Below are positions 2,931-9,440 of a DNA stretch of 12,167 nucleotides, piece after piece. Below the pieces are notes generated by a model that saw only the letters and a list, made by a program, of their open reading frames with translations, did not search any database and had not been told where the DNA came from. Numbering within the stretch: position 1 is the first letter of the stretch; each line of letters starts with the position of its first letter. The stretch is from Actinomycetes bacterium (GTDB taxonomy: Bacteria; Actinomycetota; Actinomycetes; Mycobacteriales; Micromonosporaceae), in NCBI GenBank assembly GCA_023437285.1, contig JAEZGP010000481.1, forward strand, positions 1 through 12,167, written 5' to 3'. Both the position numbers and the translations under genes were made by a program.

Positions 2931-2933
2931 GGT
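2928..2933 (+). promoter_or_regulatory. -10 element for a leaderless alaX transcript, overlapping the previous stop codon
   Basis: TAGGGT ends 7 nt before ATG 2941. Its first three bases are the TAG stop of the hydrolase frame. No good -35 is seen. It would give the editing gene expression independent of the broken hydrolase gene. Confidence 0.5.
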
Positions 2934-2940
2934 GAGCGCC

Positions 2941-3687
2941 ATGGGTGTGACGCATCACGGCCGGACGCACCGGCTCGACCTGTCCGACCCGACGCTGCGC
3001 GAGTGGGACTGCACCGTCGTGTGGTCCGACCCGTCCGACCCGGAGGCCGGCATCGTGCTCGACCGGTCGGCGTTCTACCCGGGCGGCGGCGGGCAGCCGC
3101 CGGACCACGGCGTACTGCTGTGGGAGGGCGTACAGACCCGCATCGTCGGCACCCGCAAGGGCGACGACCTCTACCTGCTGCCCGCGCCGGGCGACCCGAT
3201 CCCGCCCGCCGGCACGACGGTGGCCGGCGCCCTCGACGACACCCGCCGCAGCCTGCTCATGCGTACCCACTCCGGCCTGCACGTCCTGTGCGGGGTGGTG
3301 TTCCGAGACTTCGGCGCGCTCGTCACCGGCGGCAACATGGAACCCGGCGAGGCGCGGATGGACTTCAACCTCCCCGAGGTGCCCGCCGACTTCAAGGCCC
3401 GGCTGGAGGACCTCGTCAACGCCGAGGTCACCGCCAACCGCCGCGTCGACGTGAAGGTCCTGCCGCGCGAGCAGGCCCTCGCGCTGCCCGACATCATCCG
3501 TACCCAGTCCAACCTCATCCCCGCCGACGAGCAGGAGATCCGCATCGTCGACATCGTGGGGCTCGACGTGCAGGCCGACGGCGGCACGCACGTGGCGGCC
3601 ACCGGGCAGGTCGGCAAGGTGACCGTGGTCAAGGTCGAGAGCAAAGGCAAGGCAAACCGTCGGGTACGGGTAAAGCTCAGCGACTAG
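2941..3687 (+). CDS. alaX: Alanyl-tRNA editing protein, AlaX type
   Basis: A 248-residue free-standing homologue of the AlaRS editing domain. It hydrolyses Ser (or Gly) wrongly attached to tRNA-Ala in the cytoplasm. The N-terminal barrel carries the AlaX-M/AlaRS glycine-rich signature FYPGGGGQPPDHG (45-57). The metal site shows HSGLH (His110, His114) and DGGTH (213-217, His217). The classical motif is CGGTH, so the first ligand position is Asp instead of Cys, a substitution I believe is tolerated in part of the family. The length fits AlaX-M, without the extra C-terminal domain of AlaX-L. ATG 2941 is preferred over GTG 2932 because of the TAGGGT element 7 nt upstream. The stop codon overlaps that of the convergent HerA-like gene in a shared CTAG (3684-3687). 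Confidence 0.88.
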   Translation: MGVTHHGRTHRLDLSDPTLREWDCTVVWSDPSDPEAGIVLDRSAFYPGGGGQPPDHGVLLWEGVQTRIVGTRKGDDLYLLPAPGDPIPPAGTTVAGALDDTRRSLLMRTHSGLHVLCGVVFRDFGALVTGGNMEPGEARMDFNLPEVPADFKARLEDLVNAEVTANRRVDVKVLPREQALALPDIIRTQSNLIPADEQEIRIVDIVGLDVQADGGTHVAATGQVGKVTVVKVESKGKANRRVRVKLSD

Positions 3688-6600
3688 CGCCTGGTCCGCT
3701 CGATGACCTCCTCGGGGGTCAGGGGTGAGCGCGGGTGGTGGGTCAGGCACAACGGCGTGCGTACCTTGACGAACGAGAAGCCCTCGCCGGCCGCGTAGAA
3801 CTGGCCGCTGCGCAGGATGCCGATGTCGGGCACCCGGCCGTTCTTCGCGGCGGCCAGCTCCTTCGCGGCGTCGATCTGGGCCGGCGCGTTGAGCAGCCCG
3901 AAGAACTGGGTCGTGGCGTTGCCGGAGATCTGGTTGTGCAGCCCCTTCGGTGCCTGGGTCGCGAACACCAGCCCCAGCCCGTACTTGCGGGCCTGCGACG
4001 CGAGCGCGATCGAGCTGGCCGTGCACGGCGTGTTGCCGCCTGACGGGGCCAAGGTCTGCGCCTCGTCCATGACGAACAGCCCGCCCAGCGGCCGGTCGCC
4101 GGCCGGGTTGCGCTTGATCCAGGCGAACAGCGCCATCTGGAGCTGGTTGACGAAGCTCTGCCGCTGCTCGTCCGAGGTGAGCCCGACGAAACTGATCACG
4201 GAGACGCGCGCACGCTTGCCGGGCGGCGGGGTCAGCAGGATCCCCGGGTCTACCGGCGTCCCTGAGCCGCCGAACAGCGGGTCGTTGAACATGGCCGCCT
4301 TCAGCGTCTCGCCCGCGTCGTGCGCCAGCTTGGTGCCCTTGGCGAAGCTCGTCAGCTCCTCCGGTAGGTCGCTGAGCAGGTCGGCGAAGCCGCGCAGGTC
4401 GGTGTGGCCCTGCCGGGCATACCAGAGCAGCGCCTCCTTGAGCACCGCGCGGCCCTGGTCGTGCGCCTTGGTGCGACCGTCCACTTTGGCGCGCGGTGCC
4501 AGCGCGGCCACGGCCGCCTCGATCGCCTTGTCGAACTCATCGGCGTCGCCCAACAGCGGCCCGAAGTCGGGCAGCGGCTGGAACGCCAGCGGCCGGCCCG
4601 CGTTGACCCGGGGCGTCCAGACGACCACGTCGGTGTTGTCGAGGTAGTCGCGGGTCGCCTCCGCATCCTCGCCCACGGGTGGCTCGGGCCACGGGTCCCC
4701 GAGGCGGGCGAGATCGTTGTTGGGGTCCAGCACGATCGACGACACACCCTGGCGCGCGCACTCCTCGACGAGCCGCCGGATCAGTACCGTCTTGCCCGAC
4801 CCGGACCCCGCGAAGATCACCGTGTGCCGTCGCAGCGACTCCAGGTTCACCAGGAACGGCGCGTCGGTCTCAACGGTGCGCCCGAGACCGATAGCTGGTC
4901 CGAACGCAGCGGCGACCGGTTCTTCGCCGCGGACGGTCGGGCCACCCGTAGATGCCTTGCCGGCGCCGACCGTCCGGTCGTCCAGCACGCTGCTCAGGAG
5001 AACGGTCCGGCTCGCTGGCCGGCGGGCGACGAGCCACTCGCCGAAACCGGGCAACGGTCTGGCGCGCATGTCACGTAAGGCGGCGAAGACCTTGAGATCC
5101 CGCTCGTCAACCGACCGCACCAGGCCGCCAGCGGCGAGGAAAGACTCAACCGTCTCGGCCATCCGCTTGCCGCCCGGCCAGTTGCCGTTGCGGAGCAGCA
5201 CCAGGCGACGCTGCGGCAGACCCGCGTCGACACCCGCCGTCGTGCAGGCCAGGCGGATGCGGCTCATCGCGGCGTTCGCATTGGGGTGAGCGATCGCCCG
5301 GAACGCCCAGTGCGTCTCGTGGTCGGTGGCCTCGTCGATCACCTCGACCAGCCGGCCGTGCAGCGCCGGCTTGGTGCTGGGCAGCGGGTCGTGCTTGAAC
5401 GTGGTACCTGATGGAGCCTGCTCATCGATCCACGCGGCAAGGCCGGCCGCGAGCAGCGCCGGCATTTCAACGTCCTCGGTTGTGTGGTGCAACGCCCGGG
5501 AGACGTCCGCCTCGGCCACCAGTTCGGCAAAGCGCTCGTCCAGCGCGTCGAACTCCGAGAGCCGGGGCGGGTCAACTCGCTTCTGGACGGGTATGCCCTC
5601 GGTCAGCGACGTCAGTTCGGTCACCACGCCCGTACTCAGGCAGTGGGTGATGTGCTTGTCGATGCGGCGCAACAGGTTGCGCGGCGTGAAGTCGGGCGCG
5701 TCGGCGAAGGCCTCCGGCCGGATCGGCCACGTCGGGTACGGCGCGGAGTAGCGTTTTTCGTTGAAGCGGGCCGTGAACCGCTTCTCCACCAGCCGCTCGC
5801 CCAGTTCCCGGCTCGGGATGCGGCTCGGCAGGACGGTCTCCCGGAACCGGTCCAGCACCGGCGTCGGGGCGTACTTCTTCAGCAGGACGTACGTGTCGGG
5901 CAGGATCGACACGACGACGAGCGTGCGCAGGGTCACGTCGCGCAGGGCCAGCAGGCCGTCGGCGACCGGCCCGACGGCCGCTGCCTCGGCGTCCTCCAGG
6001 CCGCTGTCCTGCCGGGTGAAGTTGGCGTGCGAGAGCGCGAACAGCTGGTCGACCTGGTCCACCGCGATCACCGTGGGGCAGCGGGTCAGGGCCAGGAGGC
6101 GCGAGATGTCCTCGACGATCTCCTGTGGGTTGCGTGTGGCCGCGGTCAGCCCCCACGCGGCGCGCTCAGCCGGATCGCCCGGCACGGAGATGAGGTGTGC
6201 CAGGCCGACGTCCTGCGCCGCGAAGTCGGGCGAGCCGTAGAGCACCAACGCCCGGGCCGTGTCCAGGTACTGGAGTGAGGCCAGCCCCGCGTGCATGCGC
6301 AGCGCGCGTACGAATCGGTCGAGGAGTTCGCGCGTCAACGGCGCGGCTCCTGCCGCCGCGTCGCGCACCTCCGCCTCAACGCCGAGTGAGGCGGTGAGCC
6401 GGCGCATGAAGGTCTTGAGCTGCATGCCCCACGTGCTCGACCGCTGGGTCAGCCCGTCCAGGATTCCGATCGCCGTGTTTTCCCAGAACGTCTTGCCGCT
6501 CGTGACCTTGACGAGGAAGAAGTACCCACCGTCCTCGCGCTGGATCCGCTCGCGCACGGCTCCGAGCATGTGCGTCTTGCCGGACCCCGCCCGGCCCTCG

Positions 6601-6785
6601 ACGATGACTCCGGACGGGCTGCCCTCGCTGCCGTAGCGGGCCTCGGCCATGCCGTCGAAGATCTGCTCCACGACGCGGGCGTGCAGCTCGGGAACGTCGA
6701 ACGGGGATGGCTGCCAGATGTCGTCCGGGGTCGGCGCCACGTCGAAGCGCAGCGCCGCCAGCGCGGACCGCTCCTCGGGTGTCAT
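3684..6785 (-). CDS. AAA P-loop plus HerA-like ATPase fusion
   Basis: A 1033-residue protein with two nucleotide-binding modules and no membrane segment. Residues about 30-400 are an AAA/STAND-like domain with Walker A GRAGSGKTH (64-72) and Walker B TVIAVDQVDQ (238-247). The usual Glu after Asp243 is Gln, so hydrolysis there may be weak. Residues about 400-600 form a linker containing the alpha/beta stretch RLVLLRNGNWPGG (527-539). Residues about 640-1020 match the HerA/FtsK/DUF87 translocase core: Walker A GSGSGKT (660-666), LDPNND (686-691), Walker B LFVMDEAQ (903-910), the sensor-like FATQAP (941-946), and a barrel-like end SGQFYAAGEGFSFVKVRTP. HerA proteins form hexameric rings that pump DNA and work with nucleases. 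The start overlaps the stop of the winged-helix gene (ATGA, 6782-6785), implying coupled translation. The role is inferred: motor of a DNA-processing or defence complex with the nuclease two genes upstream. Confidence 0.88.
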   Translation of the reverse strand: MTPEERSALAALRFDVAPTPDDIWQPSPFDVPELHARVVEQIFDGMAEARYGSEGSPSGVIVEGRAGSGKTHMLGAVRERIQREDGGYFFLVKVTSGKTFWENTAIGILDGLTQRSSTWGMQLKTFMRRLTASLGVEAEVRDAAAGAAPLTRELLDRFVRALRMHAGLASLQYLDTARALVLYGSPDFAAQDVGLAHLISVPGDPAERAAWGLTAATRNPQEIVEDISRLLALTRCPTVIAVDQVDQLFALSHANFTRQDSGLEDAEAAAVGPVADGLLALRDVTLRTLVVVSILPDTYVLLKKYAPTPVLDRFRETVLPSRIPSRELGERLVEKRFTARFNEKRYSAPYPTWPIRPEAFADAPDFTPRNLLRRIDKHITHCLSTGVVTELTSLTEGIPVQKRVDPPRLSEFDALDERFAELVAEADVSRALHHTTEDVEMPALLAAGLAAWIDEQAPSGTTFKHDPLPSTKPALHGRLVEVIDEATDHETHWAFRAIAHPNANAAMSRIRLACTTAGVDAGLPQRRLVLLRNGNWPGGKRMAETVESFLAAGGLVRSVDERDLKVFAALRDMRARPLPGFGEWLVARRPASRTVLLSSVLDDRTVGAGKASTGGPTVRGEEPVAAAFGPAIGLGRTVETDAPFLVNLESLRRHTVIFAGSGSGKTVLIRRLVEECARQGVSSIVLDPNNDLARLGDPWPEPPVGEDAEATRDYLDNTDVVVWTPRVNAGRPLAFQPLPDFGPLLGDADEFDKAIEAAVAALAPRAKVDGRTKAHDQGRAVLKEALLWYARQGHTDLRGFADLLSDLPEELTSFAKGTKLAHDAGETLKAAMFNDPLFGGSGTPVDPGILLTPPPGKRARVSVISFVGLTSDEQRQSFVNQLQMALFAWIKRNPAGDRPLGGLFVMDEAQTLAPSGGNTPCTASSIALASQARKYGLGLVFATQAPKGLHNQISGNATTQFFGLLNAPAQIDAAKELAAAKNGRVPDIGILRSGQFYAAGEGFSFVKVRTPLCLTHHPRSPLTPEEVIERTRR

Positions 6786-7468
6786 CCGCGTCCGATCGCG
6801 AGCGCGTGGATGTCCTCACCGCCCAGGTGTAGGGCCGCTTCCCGGTCCCGGGCGTCGAGCGCCTTGCTGTTCGCCACCGGGATCAGGTCGACGTCGGCGG
6901 CCCGCGACATGGTGTGCAACGCGGCATCGACGGCCGGTCGATCAAGGTCCGCCACCGCGTCCCGGACGTCGGCCAGCGCGACCCAGTCGCCGGGCACGCG
7001 GGCCAGTTCCCGGTAAGCGACTCGGATTCGCGCCTCGACGCCCTGAGCGGCCTCGGTGTTCGGCTCCTCGATGTCCCGAGCGGGCTCGGTATCCGGCACC
7101 TCGACGACGCCAGCCTGCTTGAAGAAGTCGGCGTAGCTGACCTGCGCTCGATCGAGCGACCGGTGGATCCCGGCCAGGAGCACCAGCAGGGCACGCCCGG
7201 GCCGGCTGCCGGTGATCTGGGTGGACGTGCCGAGCTCCTTGCACATCCGCCAGCCCTTGTCCGTCAGCTGGTGTCCGAGCAGTGTGCCCTTAACCTTCCG
7301 GCTCTCGATGAGGCCGTGGTCCTTCAGCTTGTTCATGTCTTTGCCGGTCAGCGTGAAACCGGCGATCTCCTGCAGCTCCTTGTTCGTCATCTCGCGGGCC
7401 TCGGACATGAGGATGACGAGGGCGGAGAGCTGGAGCGGATTCAGCTTGGGGAAGGGGTCGGTCGACAT
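6782..7468 (-). CDS. Winged-helix protein of the HerA/nuclease operon
   Basis: A 228-residue protein, middle gene of the minus-strand operon. Residues about 8-80 form a MarR/PadR-like winged helix, with helix TNKELQEIAGFTLTGKDMNKLKDHGLI followed by a wing around SRKVKGTLLGHQLTDKGW. Residues 90-115 are a hydrophobic helix (RALLVLLAGIHRSL), then comes an acidic linker (122-145, rich in Glu and Pro). Residues about 146-225 look like a second wHTH: IRVAYRELARVPGDWVALADVRDAV, then DRPAVDAALHTMSR, then an IPVANSKAL strand and a conserved-looking ALHLGG end. A GAGG site lies 4 nt before ATG 7468, inside the end of the upstream gene. It may regulate the operon, or it may be an adaptor that brings ATPase and nuclease to DNA. 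Its place between the two enzymes, with tight coupling to both, favours a structural part. I do not recognise a named family. Confidence 0.8.
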   Translation of the reverse strand: MSTDPFPKLNPLQLSALVILMSEAREMTNKELQEIAGFTLTGKDMNKLKDHGLIESRKVKGTLLGHQLTDKGWRMCKELGTSTQITGSRPGRALLVLLAGIHRSLDRAQVSYADFFKQAGVVEVPDTEPARDIEEPNTEAAQGVEARIRVAYRELARVPGDWVALADVRDAVADLDRPAVDAALHTMSRAADVDLIPVANSKALDARDREAALHLGGEDIHALAIGRG

Positions 7469-7474
7469 GGTGCC

Positions 7475-8536
7475 TCATTTCCTTGTCGCGCGCCGCTGCA
7501 GCAGCATCTGTTCGATCTCGTGAAGCACAACCGCCAGTTCGTTGGCGATGCGCTCGTTGGGGAAGCGCAGTAGGACCAGCCCGTCGAGGACGAGCTGCGC
7601 GTCGCGGTGGCGGTCGGCGGCGAACTTCCGCCGGCCACGATGCTCGTCTCCGTCCACCTCGACCACCAACCCTTCATCCGGCCAGAACAGGTCCAGCCGA
7701 TACGGCAGCAGATGAGGCTGGCGGGTGTACGTGCAGTTCCAGCGCCTGCCCACGGCCCATTCGCACCGGTCCAGGGCGTGGGCCAACCGCTGTTCCGCCG
7801 GGCTGTTGGGATGGGGCATCCCGGAGATGGCCGGGTAGGTCAATGCCGGGCCGGCGGGCTCCCGAGCCGGCGGCGCGTCGTCAGCAGCCAGAGTCGCCAG
7901 GTGAGCGGGGAGGGCAACGGGCACCACACGGACGCGGTCCACCGCGCGCAGGGGGGCGCCGGCCAGCCAGACGGACAGGCGGCCGTACTCGGCGAGCCAT
8001 TCGGCGGCCGCCACCAGCGTCCGCTCGTCCGGGGCCGATAGTCCCTCCGGGACGTCGATCAGCAGCGCCGCCGTGGGCCGGTCGTAGGCGCGGGCGATGA
8101 CCCGTACGAGGCCTGCCGCCCGTACGGCTGAAGGAAAGCGCGACCCAGCACGCGGCCGGCGGCGAAGCGACCGCTCCGCCAGGTCGGCCACGAACGGGCC
8201 GAAGTCGGCGCCGTGGGCGGCGAGGTCCGCGGCCAGTGCGCGGACCGCGGCCACGCCCCGGCCCTGCGGGCCGGCCAACCGGTCCGCGCCGGGCAGCCAG
8301 GCGGGAAACAGCGACGTGGCGGCCCGGTCCAGCTCATGGAGGAGTACGGACACCTGGTCGCCGAGGGGGCCGGTCGCCGAAGGGCGGAAGCGCAGCACGG
8401 CCGGGGCGTCGTCGGGCAGCGGGTCGAGGGAGACGGCCAACAGGTCGGGGTCGATGCCGGGTCCGAGGTAGGTCACGCGGTGCGGGGGCAGGTTCGCCCA
8501 CCACGCCGCACCGGCGAGGGTCGGCGCGGCCATCAT
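7475..8536 (-). CDS. Vsr/DUF559-type PD-(D/E)XK nuclease with N-terminal alpha/beta region
   Basis: A 353-residue protein, first gene of the minus-strand operon. The C-terminal third (about 243-350) is a Vsr/DUF559-like endonuclease: helix with Glu248 (SPAEQRLAHAL), strand Asp282 (PYRLDLFWP), core VVEVDGDEH (291-299, with Glu293 and Asp295), then a basic helix and the typical DGLVLLRFPNERI (318-330). These are the expected metal and catalytic positions of the restriction-endonuclease fold. Residues 1-240 show no P-loop, but AALLIDVPEGLSAPDERTL (156-174) and RLSVWLAG (186-193) resemble strand and Walker B parts of an ATPase, so this may be a degenerate AAA domain or a docking domain. ATG 8536 is chosen; ATG 8533 follows directly. 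A TAACGT element (8550-8545) lies 8 nt upstream, suggesting a leaderless start. The gene ends 6 nt before the winged-helix gene. Nuclease fold is well supported; target and activity are unknown. Confidence 0.85.
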   Translation of the reverse strand: MMAAPTLAGAAWWANLPPHRVTYLGPGIDPDLLAVSLDPLPDDAPAVLRFRPSATGPLGDQVSVLLHELDRAATSLFPAWLPGADRLAGPQGRGVAAVRALAADLAAHGADFGPFVADLAERSLRRRPRAGSRFPSAVRAAGLVRVIARAYDRPTAALLIDVPEGLSAPDERTLVAAAEWLAEYGRLSVWLAGAPLRAVDRVRVVPVALPAHLATLAADDAPPAREPAGPALTYPAISGMPHPNSPAEQRLAHALDRCEWAVGRRWNCTYTRQPHLLPYRLDLFWPDEGLVVEVDGDEHRGRRKFAADRHRDAQLVLDGLVLLRFPNERIANELAVVLHEIEQMLLQRRATRK

Positions 8537-8550: not shown

Positions 8551-8623
8551 CGCGGTGACGTCGCGTGATCGCAGTCCGTCGTTCGCCGGAGGGTGCCGGT
8601 GCCCGGGCGGCCGATGGCCCCAC

Positions 8624-8629
8624 TACGAT
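8624..8629 (+). promoter_or_regulatory. -10 element for leaderless EI24-protein transcript
   Basis: TACGAT ends exactly 7 nt before ATG 8637, and no ribosome site is present. This supports ATG 8637 over the upstream in-frame start at 8565. Confidence 0.5.
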
Positions 8630-8636
8630 CCGCGTC

Positions 8637-9440
8637 ATGAGCGCAGTCGAGGCCGCCCCGTCCGGCCAACCCGCCGGCGTCGGCCGGGAATTCTTCGCCG
8701 GGGTCGGGTTCCTGCTGCGCGGCGTGAAGATGTACACGCGCTCGCCCCGGCTGATGCTGCTCGGGCTGATCCCGGCGTTCATCACGCTGGTGCTGCTGGT
8801 CGCGGCCCTGGCCGCCCTGGCGTACTTCGTCGACGACCTGGCGCGGCTCGTCACGTGGTTTGCCGACGACTGGTCGGCCGGCTGGCGGCAGGCGGTCCGC
8901 ATCGCCGCCGGGTTGGCGATCATGGGTGGTGCGGTGCTGCTGAGCTTCGTCGGGTACACGGCGCTGACGCTGGTGATCGGCGAACCGTTCTACGAGGCGA
9001 TCTCCAAGAACGTCGAGGACCGGCTCGGCGGCCTGCCCGGCGAGGTCGACATCCCGTTCTGGCGTTCCCTGCCGCGCAGTATCGCCGACTCGCTGCAGCT
9101 GCTGGCGCTCACCGCGCTGTTCGGCATCCCGCTCTTCTTCGCCGGGTTCATCCCGCTCGTCGGCGGGACGGTCGTACCCGTCATCGGCGCGCTCGTCGGC
9201 GGCTGGTTCCTGTCGCACGAGCTGATCGGCGTACCGTTCGAGCGGCGCGGCCTGCGCATGCGCGACCGGCGCCGGATGCTCAAGGAGCGCCGGGCCCTGG
9301 CCACCGGGTTCGGCACGGCCACCTTCGTGTGCTTCCTCATCCCGTTCGGCGCGGTGCTCATCATGCCGGCGGCCGTGGCGGGGGCGACGCTGATGACGCG
9401 CCACCTGTTCGGCATGTCCGACCGGCTGAACGGGCAATGA
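8637..9440 (+). CDS. EI24/CysZ-like integral membrane protein
   Basis: A 267-residue multi-spanning inner-membrane protein. Hydrophobic segments lie at about residues 40-63, 86-115, 150-192 (long enough for two passes) and 222-254. There is an amphipathic N-terminal stretch, a polar loop with GEPFYEAISKNVEDRLGG (115-132) and a basic cytoplasmic loop FERRGLRMRDRRRMLKERR (201-219). This fits the EI24 domain family, which includes the sulfate transporter CysZ and many actinobacterial proteins of unknown role. No sulfur-assimilation genes are nearby, so sulfate transport is not supported by context. ATG 8637 is set by the TACGAT element 7 nt upstream. The macrodomain gene begins 7 nt after its stop, so the two are probably one transcript. 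Confidence 0.82.
   Translation: MSAVEAAPSGQPAGVGREFFAGVGFLLRGVKMYTRSPRLMLLGLIPAFITLVLLVAALAALAYFVDDLARLVTWFADDWSAGWRQAVRIAAGLAIMGGAVLLSFVGYTALTLVIGEPFYEAISKNVEDRLGGLPGEVDIPFWRSLPRSIADSLQLLALTALFGIPLFFAGFIPLVGGTVVPVIGALVGGWFLSHELIGVPFERRGLRMRDRRRMLKERRALATGFGTATFVCFLIPFGAVLIMPAAVAGATLMTRHLFGMSDRLNGQ

Follow-up and report, generated by a model that had tools for sequence, protein, structure and literature searches.

A HerA-motor operon of a Micromonosporaceae bacterium as a probable mobile immune module with an exchangeable effector

The stretch of DNA analysed here (GCA_023437285.1, contig JAEZGP010000481.1, 12,167 nt; hereafter the window) comes from an Actinomycetes bacterium of the Micromonosporaceae and carries three adjacent genes on its minus strand, encoding an effector nuclease (7475-8536), a small partner protein (6782-7468) and a large ATPase with a HerA-type motor (3684-6785). 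We propose, with a probability of about 0.65, that this trio is a mobile immune module directed against invading DNA. The proposal is based on a constant core of partner protein and ATPase, on the exchange of the third component for members of known or candidate defence families, on a sparse distribution, on the mobility of the unit, and on the prediction of this class of systems in the literature (PMC10853773, cited here from the part of its text that was covered, as are PMC11291478 and PMC12839542). Computation shows the domains of the proteins, the conservation of their active sites, the structure of the operon, the constant core with its exchanged partner, and the mobility of the unit.

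Organization and domains of the trio

The nuclease gene is followed after a 6-nt gap by the partner gene, which in turn overlaps the ATPase gene by 4 nt; all open reading frames of the one-strand, three-gene operon described in an initial annotation of the window were recovered at these positions. The same 4-nt overlap of the second gene with the ATPase gene (ATGA/GTGA) was found in 87 of the 104 loci described below, so the arrangement is not due to chance. Homologues of the trio proteins numbered at least 702, 172 and at least 255 (E ≤ 1e-3), the middle figure being that of the partner protein, with scoring in the ATPase and nuclease searches limited to the 7995 and 7993 candidates, respectively, that shared most words with the query. 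The nearest named relative among the matches listed was Luedemannella helvata, with an identity of 89% for the ATPase, 71% for the small protein and 83% for the nuclease.

The ATPase (1033 aa) matched the Pfam families AAA_16 and DUF87/HerA, which bears out the initial proposal of a HerA motor fused to an extra N-terminal P-loop domain, and all 49 of 49 aligned sequences have a Walker A motif in both NTPase domains. The N-terminal AAA+ domain (residues 6-400; 5586..6770, minus strand) is of the Orc/Cdc6 type, with TnsC-like folds also among its matches. The HerA/FtsK translocase domain (residues 628-1016; 3738..4904, minus strand) contains K665, within the second Walker A motif, as well as D907/E908, R933 and Q944; its matches tie together DndH-C, HerA, the HerA of the SIR2 complex and VirB4, and a likeness to TrwB was seen too. 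The middle domain (residues 409-600; 4986..5561, minus strand) is probably an inactive restriction endonuclease (REase): the helix and strand order, judged by eye from the DSSP assignment of an AlphaFold2 (AF2) model, is compatible with PD-(D/E)XK, and the D..(D/E)xK motif is missing according to the conservation. A PDB profile search with this domain gave no match.

The nuclease (353 aa) combines a P-loop-like domain without Walker A that resembles the STAND/AAA fold (residues 7-219; 7880..8518, minus strand) with a Vsr/DUF559 nuclease domain (residues 243-350; 7487..7810, minus strand). DUF559 (6.8e-10) and MTES_1575 were its sole Pfam matches at E ≤ 1, with no NurA family among them, and the fold is Vsr-type; E248, D282, E293, D295 and H299 are invariant in 44/44 aligned sequences. 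The assignment to the Vsr/DUF559 class was thus confirmed.

The partner protein (228 aa) had been described as a double winged-helix protein, a description that holds in part. HTH_27 was matched by 4 of 25 aligned members (E ≤ 0.01), the window protein not being among them, while the latter matched no Pfam family at E ≤ 1. Some relatives are annotated as MarR family. From the sequences of its family, a winged helix-turn-helix (wHTH) DNA-binding protein is probable.

A constant core with exchanged partners

Related loci were collected by a scan of GTDB contigs, from which the best 80 of 442 relatives were kept, a set therefore biased towards the window. Three loci from a plasmid collection and 21 from further genomes were added, giving 105 with the window, or 104 non-redundant loci, since L111 duplicates L065. 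Gene calling relied on a crude script, and gene starts are accordingly rough. The partner gene adjoins the ATPase gene in 105/105 loci, so that a dedicated HTH-like partner, as initially proposed, was found throughout, but the nuclease is not fixed: a different partner type replaces it in 24/104 loci. Over a range from 6.5 kb upstream to 3.5 kb downstream of the core pair, the partner was the DUF559 nuclease in 72 loci, a trypsin-STAND-WD40 protein in 13, a TIR protein with a ParA/MinD-like protein in five, PDC-M02A (DUF4365) with PDC-M02B in three and AIPR/AbiU in three; none was found in seven, and one locus, L020, is cut by a contig end. Two partner types never occurred together near one core in the 104 loci over this range.

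The assignments differ in kind. Each of the three AIPR loci matched AbiU (1.2e-108 to 3.5e-115), and L033 matched PDC-M02A and PDC-M02B (2.9e-66 and 4.9e-98); L042 and L048 were assigned to this type by their similarity to L033. TIR domains were matched in L107, L114 and L117, together with the N-terminal part only of PDC-M28B (6e-26 to 1e-26) and a CATASP match below the Pfam cut-off; L115 and L116 were placed in this type by similarity. L029 and L035 both gave matches to WD40 and to a STAND-type NTPase, with trypsin above the cut-off in L035 and at only 0.079 in L029; the other eleven loci of this type were assigned by their resemblance to the N-terminal 700 residues of the L035 protein. The TIR and PDC-M02 pairs are found upstream of the core in the same orientation, the AIPR gene follows it immediately, and the trypsin-type gene is divergent. 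When whole loci were searched, the trypsin-type, AIPR and M02B references had no match in the remaining loci of 92, nor had the TIR reference in the remaining loci of 105. One genome (G003) has two copies of the core, whose partners are AIPR and TIR/ParA, respectively.

In a maximum likelihood tree of 104 ATPase sequences (quick method, LG+G4), each of the four alternative partners corresponds to one ATPase group (SH-aLRT 99-100), with six label changes for the nuclease and seven for all labels together; the tree is unrooted, so that these changes stand for gain or loss of partners alike, 23 of its 101 inner branches are open, and L081 and L082 form long branches whose join is unsafe. Over 72 loci, ATPase distances follow those of the nuclease and those of the wHTH protein (r 0.90 in both cases; permutations as high, 0/500), values uncorrected for common ancestry of the species.

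No effector was recognized beside the wHTH-ATPase pair in L064, L077, L101, L113 and L121, and the core may therefore work by itself, or with a partner that is unlinked or unrecognized. Following the ATPase gene, L114 (L114:12085-15627), L115 and L116, three of the five loci of TIR type, encode a protein of ~1150 aa that matches nothing significantly in Pfam or PADLOC and may be a further subunit. Another possible effector type is a 731-aa protein of Amycolatopsis saalfeldensis (L073:7068-9263), encoded ahead of the core pair, which matches AAA_16 only weakly (0.028).

If the trio is an immune module, the wHTH-like protein and the Orc/Cdc6 domain would recognize or load onto foreign DNA, or would respond to a DNA state arising in replication or transfer of the invader; the HerA domain would form a ring pumping double-stranded DNA, and the nuclease would dock via its STAND-like domain and cleave upon engagement of the motor. 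Elsewhere in the family, this sensor-motor core would have the TIR, trypsin-STAND-WD40, AIPR or PDC-M02 effector as its partner. Assembly of the ring, sensing of DNA, activation, and protection from phages or plasmids are inferred, and we hold the individual mechanistic steps less firmly than the anti-invader role. A broader formulation, on which we are evenly divided, is that the wHTH protein and the Orc/Cdc6-inactive REase-HerA protein form a general immune chassis that senses DNA and accepts plug-in effectors, in which the state of the motor and not the chemistry of the nuclease is the alarm. Its outputs would be DNA cutting, TIR signalling, proteolysis via a STAND-WD40 relay, or the action of an AIPR/AbiU or PDC-M02 effector. 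If one motor core does fire nucleases, TIR proteins and proteases, this would show that a DNA translocase can act as a sensor with freely interchangeable outputs.

Distribution, insertion sites and neighbourhood

Among sampled genomes, 7 of 98 from a class and 18 of 101 from an order carried the ATPase (E ≤ 1e-40), or 6/97 and 17/100 without the centre genomes, which had been chosen as carriers; this sparse occurrence marks it as accessory and not core. Neighbouring genes vary as well: 2429 of 2556 pairs of nuclease-type loci have no other gene in common (≥40% identity), and 71 of 78 trypsin-type pairs no other common neighbour, counts that are inflated by short loci (contig ends, the 12-kb window).

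In the window, the trio is flanked on the left by an AlaX-type alanyl-tRNA editing protein (2932..3687, plus strand; tRNA_SAD 8.7e-11 in Pfam) and on the right by an EI24/CysZ-type membrane protein (8565..9440, plus strand, start possibly at 8637; EI24 3e-43 in Pfam). The EI24 gene is present in 24 of 31 genomes of the family. In 8 of these 24 relatives AlaX precedes EI24 in the order of the window, with ~15-490 bp between the aligned ends; the ~1.5 kb flank examined held no AlaX in the remaining 16 and the trio in none of the 24. We read the trio of the window as an insertion between AlaX and EI24.

These data bear on the view that the trio is a chromosomal repair or recombination machine, in which HerA feeds DNA ends to the nuclease for break processing in the manner of HerA-NurA. 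HerA-NurA (9x1m) is the top Foldseek row for the ATPase, some loci are syntenic, and the annotated neighbours in the window are of housekeeping type, a position that the initial annotation took as a possible sign of such a role. Insertion between AlaX and EI24 explains these neighbours, and they no longer argue for repair. The patchy distribution, the adjacency of AlaX and EI24 without the trio, and the replacement of the nuclease by TIR, trypsin-type, AIPR and PDC-M02 partners, swaps that a resection machine would hardly tolerate, make this view very improbable. The same low standing is given to a module for maintenance or transfer of a mobile element, in which the HerA/FtsK pump and a TnsC/Orc-like ATPase would aid movement and not immunity. 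The TnsC-like N-terminal matches, VirB4 among the motor matches and the varying insertion sites speak for it. Set against it are the immune-type partner genes, the yield of three plasmid records and no viral contig, and the finding that beyond the module genes no neighbour cluster (clusters being unannotated) exceeds 13 of 80 loci, and thus no mobility gene is constantly linked.

Several observations weigh against a mobile immune module. The ATPase had no match in viral contigs and none in phages, and only three records of the plasmid collection matched. Two of these look chromosomal, one being 11.85 Mb long and the other carrying ribosomal protein genes, which leaves the trio-bearing record of Methylobacterium aquaticum (wHTH match weak, 49 bits) as the sole convincing plasmid. 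In a comparison aimed at a defence-island setting, PADLOC families (E ≤ 1e-10) numbered 41 in 117 flank proteins and 15 in 117 control proteins, an excess of uncertain meaning: 17 of the 25 flank families listed were PD-T4-6 models with one member each, and one control region holds a Pgl/BREX set. At least three neighbours are common to 84 nuclease-type pairs (all 25 pairs listed being Micromonospora), and Rhodococcus loci also have neighbours in common; the 84 pairs indicate that spread was partly vertical. Seven loci carry the core pair with no effector in the range searched, and no PADLOC 2023 or NCBIfam model covers the ATPase over its full length. The partner families and the mobility of the unit nevertheless support an immune role, and the motor-nuclease complex acting on invading DNA that the initial annotation envisaged is probably correct. 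That the same immune core targets plasmids or conjugating DNA instead of phage is unlikely: the motor domain resembles TrwB and VirB4, and action at the stages of segregation or transfer has been suggested for capture systems (PMC10853773, section 26), while this idea overlaps the immune-module reading itself.

Two further observations concern the surroundings. In Tsukamurella tyrosinosolvens (L081:10293-15261), the trio and a VapBC-like pair lie inside a ribosomal protein cluster, between rpsQ and rplN. In the window, positions 992-1618 encode a short protein with repeated LRTELPGKVAEL-type units, whose match to an apolipoprotein model is below the cut-off and whose gene shares a 4-nt overlap with an HTH gene.

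Comparison with known systems

HerA-NurA likewise joins a HerA motor to a nuclease, but the window nuclease is DUF559/Vsr and not NurA, and the N-terminus of the motor protein is Orc/Cdc6-like. HerA-SIR2 (Nezha) and HerA-DUF4297 pair a HerA motor with a separate effector, as here. Their effector families differ, and no SIR2 or DUF4297 match was found in the Pfam and PADLOC rows of the nuclease and the 228-aa protein. We know of no Orc/Cdc6 domain or wHTH partner in these systems. In HerA-DUF4297, assembly of the complex activates both enzymes (PMC11291478). Compared with DndFGH, the trio is without DndF and without the N-terminal domains of DndH (described in PMC10853773).

In PADLOC, the mad8 model of MADS matched the window motor (5.9e-21). 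MADS includes further mad genes beside mad8, and no mad model matched the nuclease or the 228-aa protein in PADLOC, the other window genes being compared with Pfam alone. The mad8 model also matched two flank proteins and one control protein (E ≤ 1e-10), and no flank protein is related to the ATPase. BREX-Related Capture systems (PMC12839542, NAR 2026) share Orc/Cdc6-type ATPase, HerA/FtsK, wHTH-type and STAND-type components with the trio; they have seven components, including PglZ, DUF4007 and TGT, compared with only three genes in the window.

The closest counterpart is a class of mobile capture systems predicted in PMC10853773 (NAR 2024), composed of an Orc/CDC6 AAA+ protein, an inactive and an active REase, HerA/FtsK and wHTH, in which the motor is proposed to bring invader DNA to the nuclease. 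The inactive REase is placed there between the AAA+ core and a C-terminal wHTH, and the HerA domain belongs to clade 2, 4 or 5 of the six distinguished in that paper. It also mentions related Orc/CDC6 proteins, identified without regard to HerA, that are fused to STAND NTPases, pentapeptide repeats or TIR. Sections 22 and 26 report no phage or plasmid assays, and in the literature covered the Orc/CDC6 type is a computational prediction only. The initial statement that the combination matches no named system thus stands in so far as no PADLOC 2023 or NCBIfam model corresponds to it, and falls in so far as it had been predicted in print; the system is half catalogued. The words DUF559, Vsr, AIPR and trypsin are absent from the main text of that paper, and the open-access literature, covered mostly without supplements, yielded no account of a constant wHTH-HerA pair whose partner is exchanged.

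Differences from the predicted class are that AAA+, middle domain and motor form a single polypeptide in the window, that the nuclease is of the DUF559/Vsr type with a STAND-like domain, and that it is swapped elsewhere for TIR, trypsin-STAND-WD40, AIPR or PDC-M02 partners. On four features the window operon fits the prediction: an Orc/CDC6 AAA+ domain, HerA/FtsK, an active REase-fold nuclease and a mobile neighbourhood are present. The domain after the AAA+ domain and the 228-aa protein are candidate counterparts of the inactive REase and the wHTH component. Having a single gene each for the motor, a probable DNA-binding partner and an exchangeable effector, this compact actinobacterial version would be a tractable case in which to study the class.

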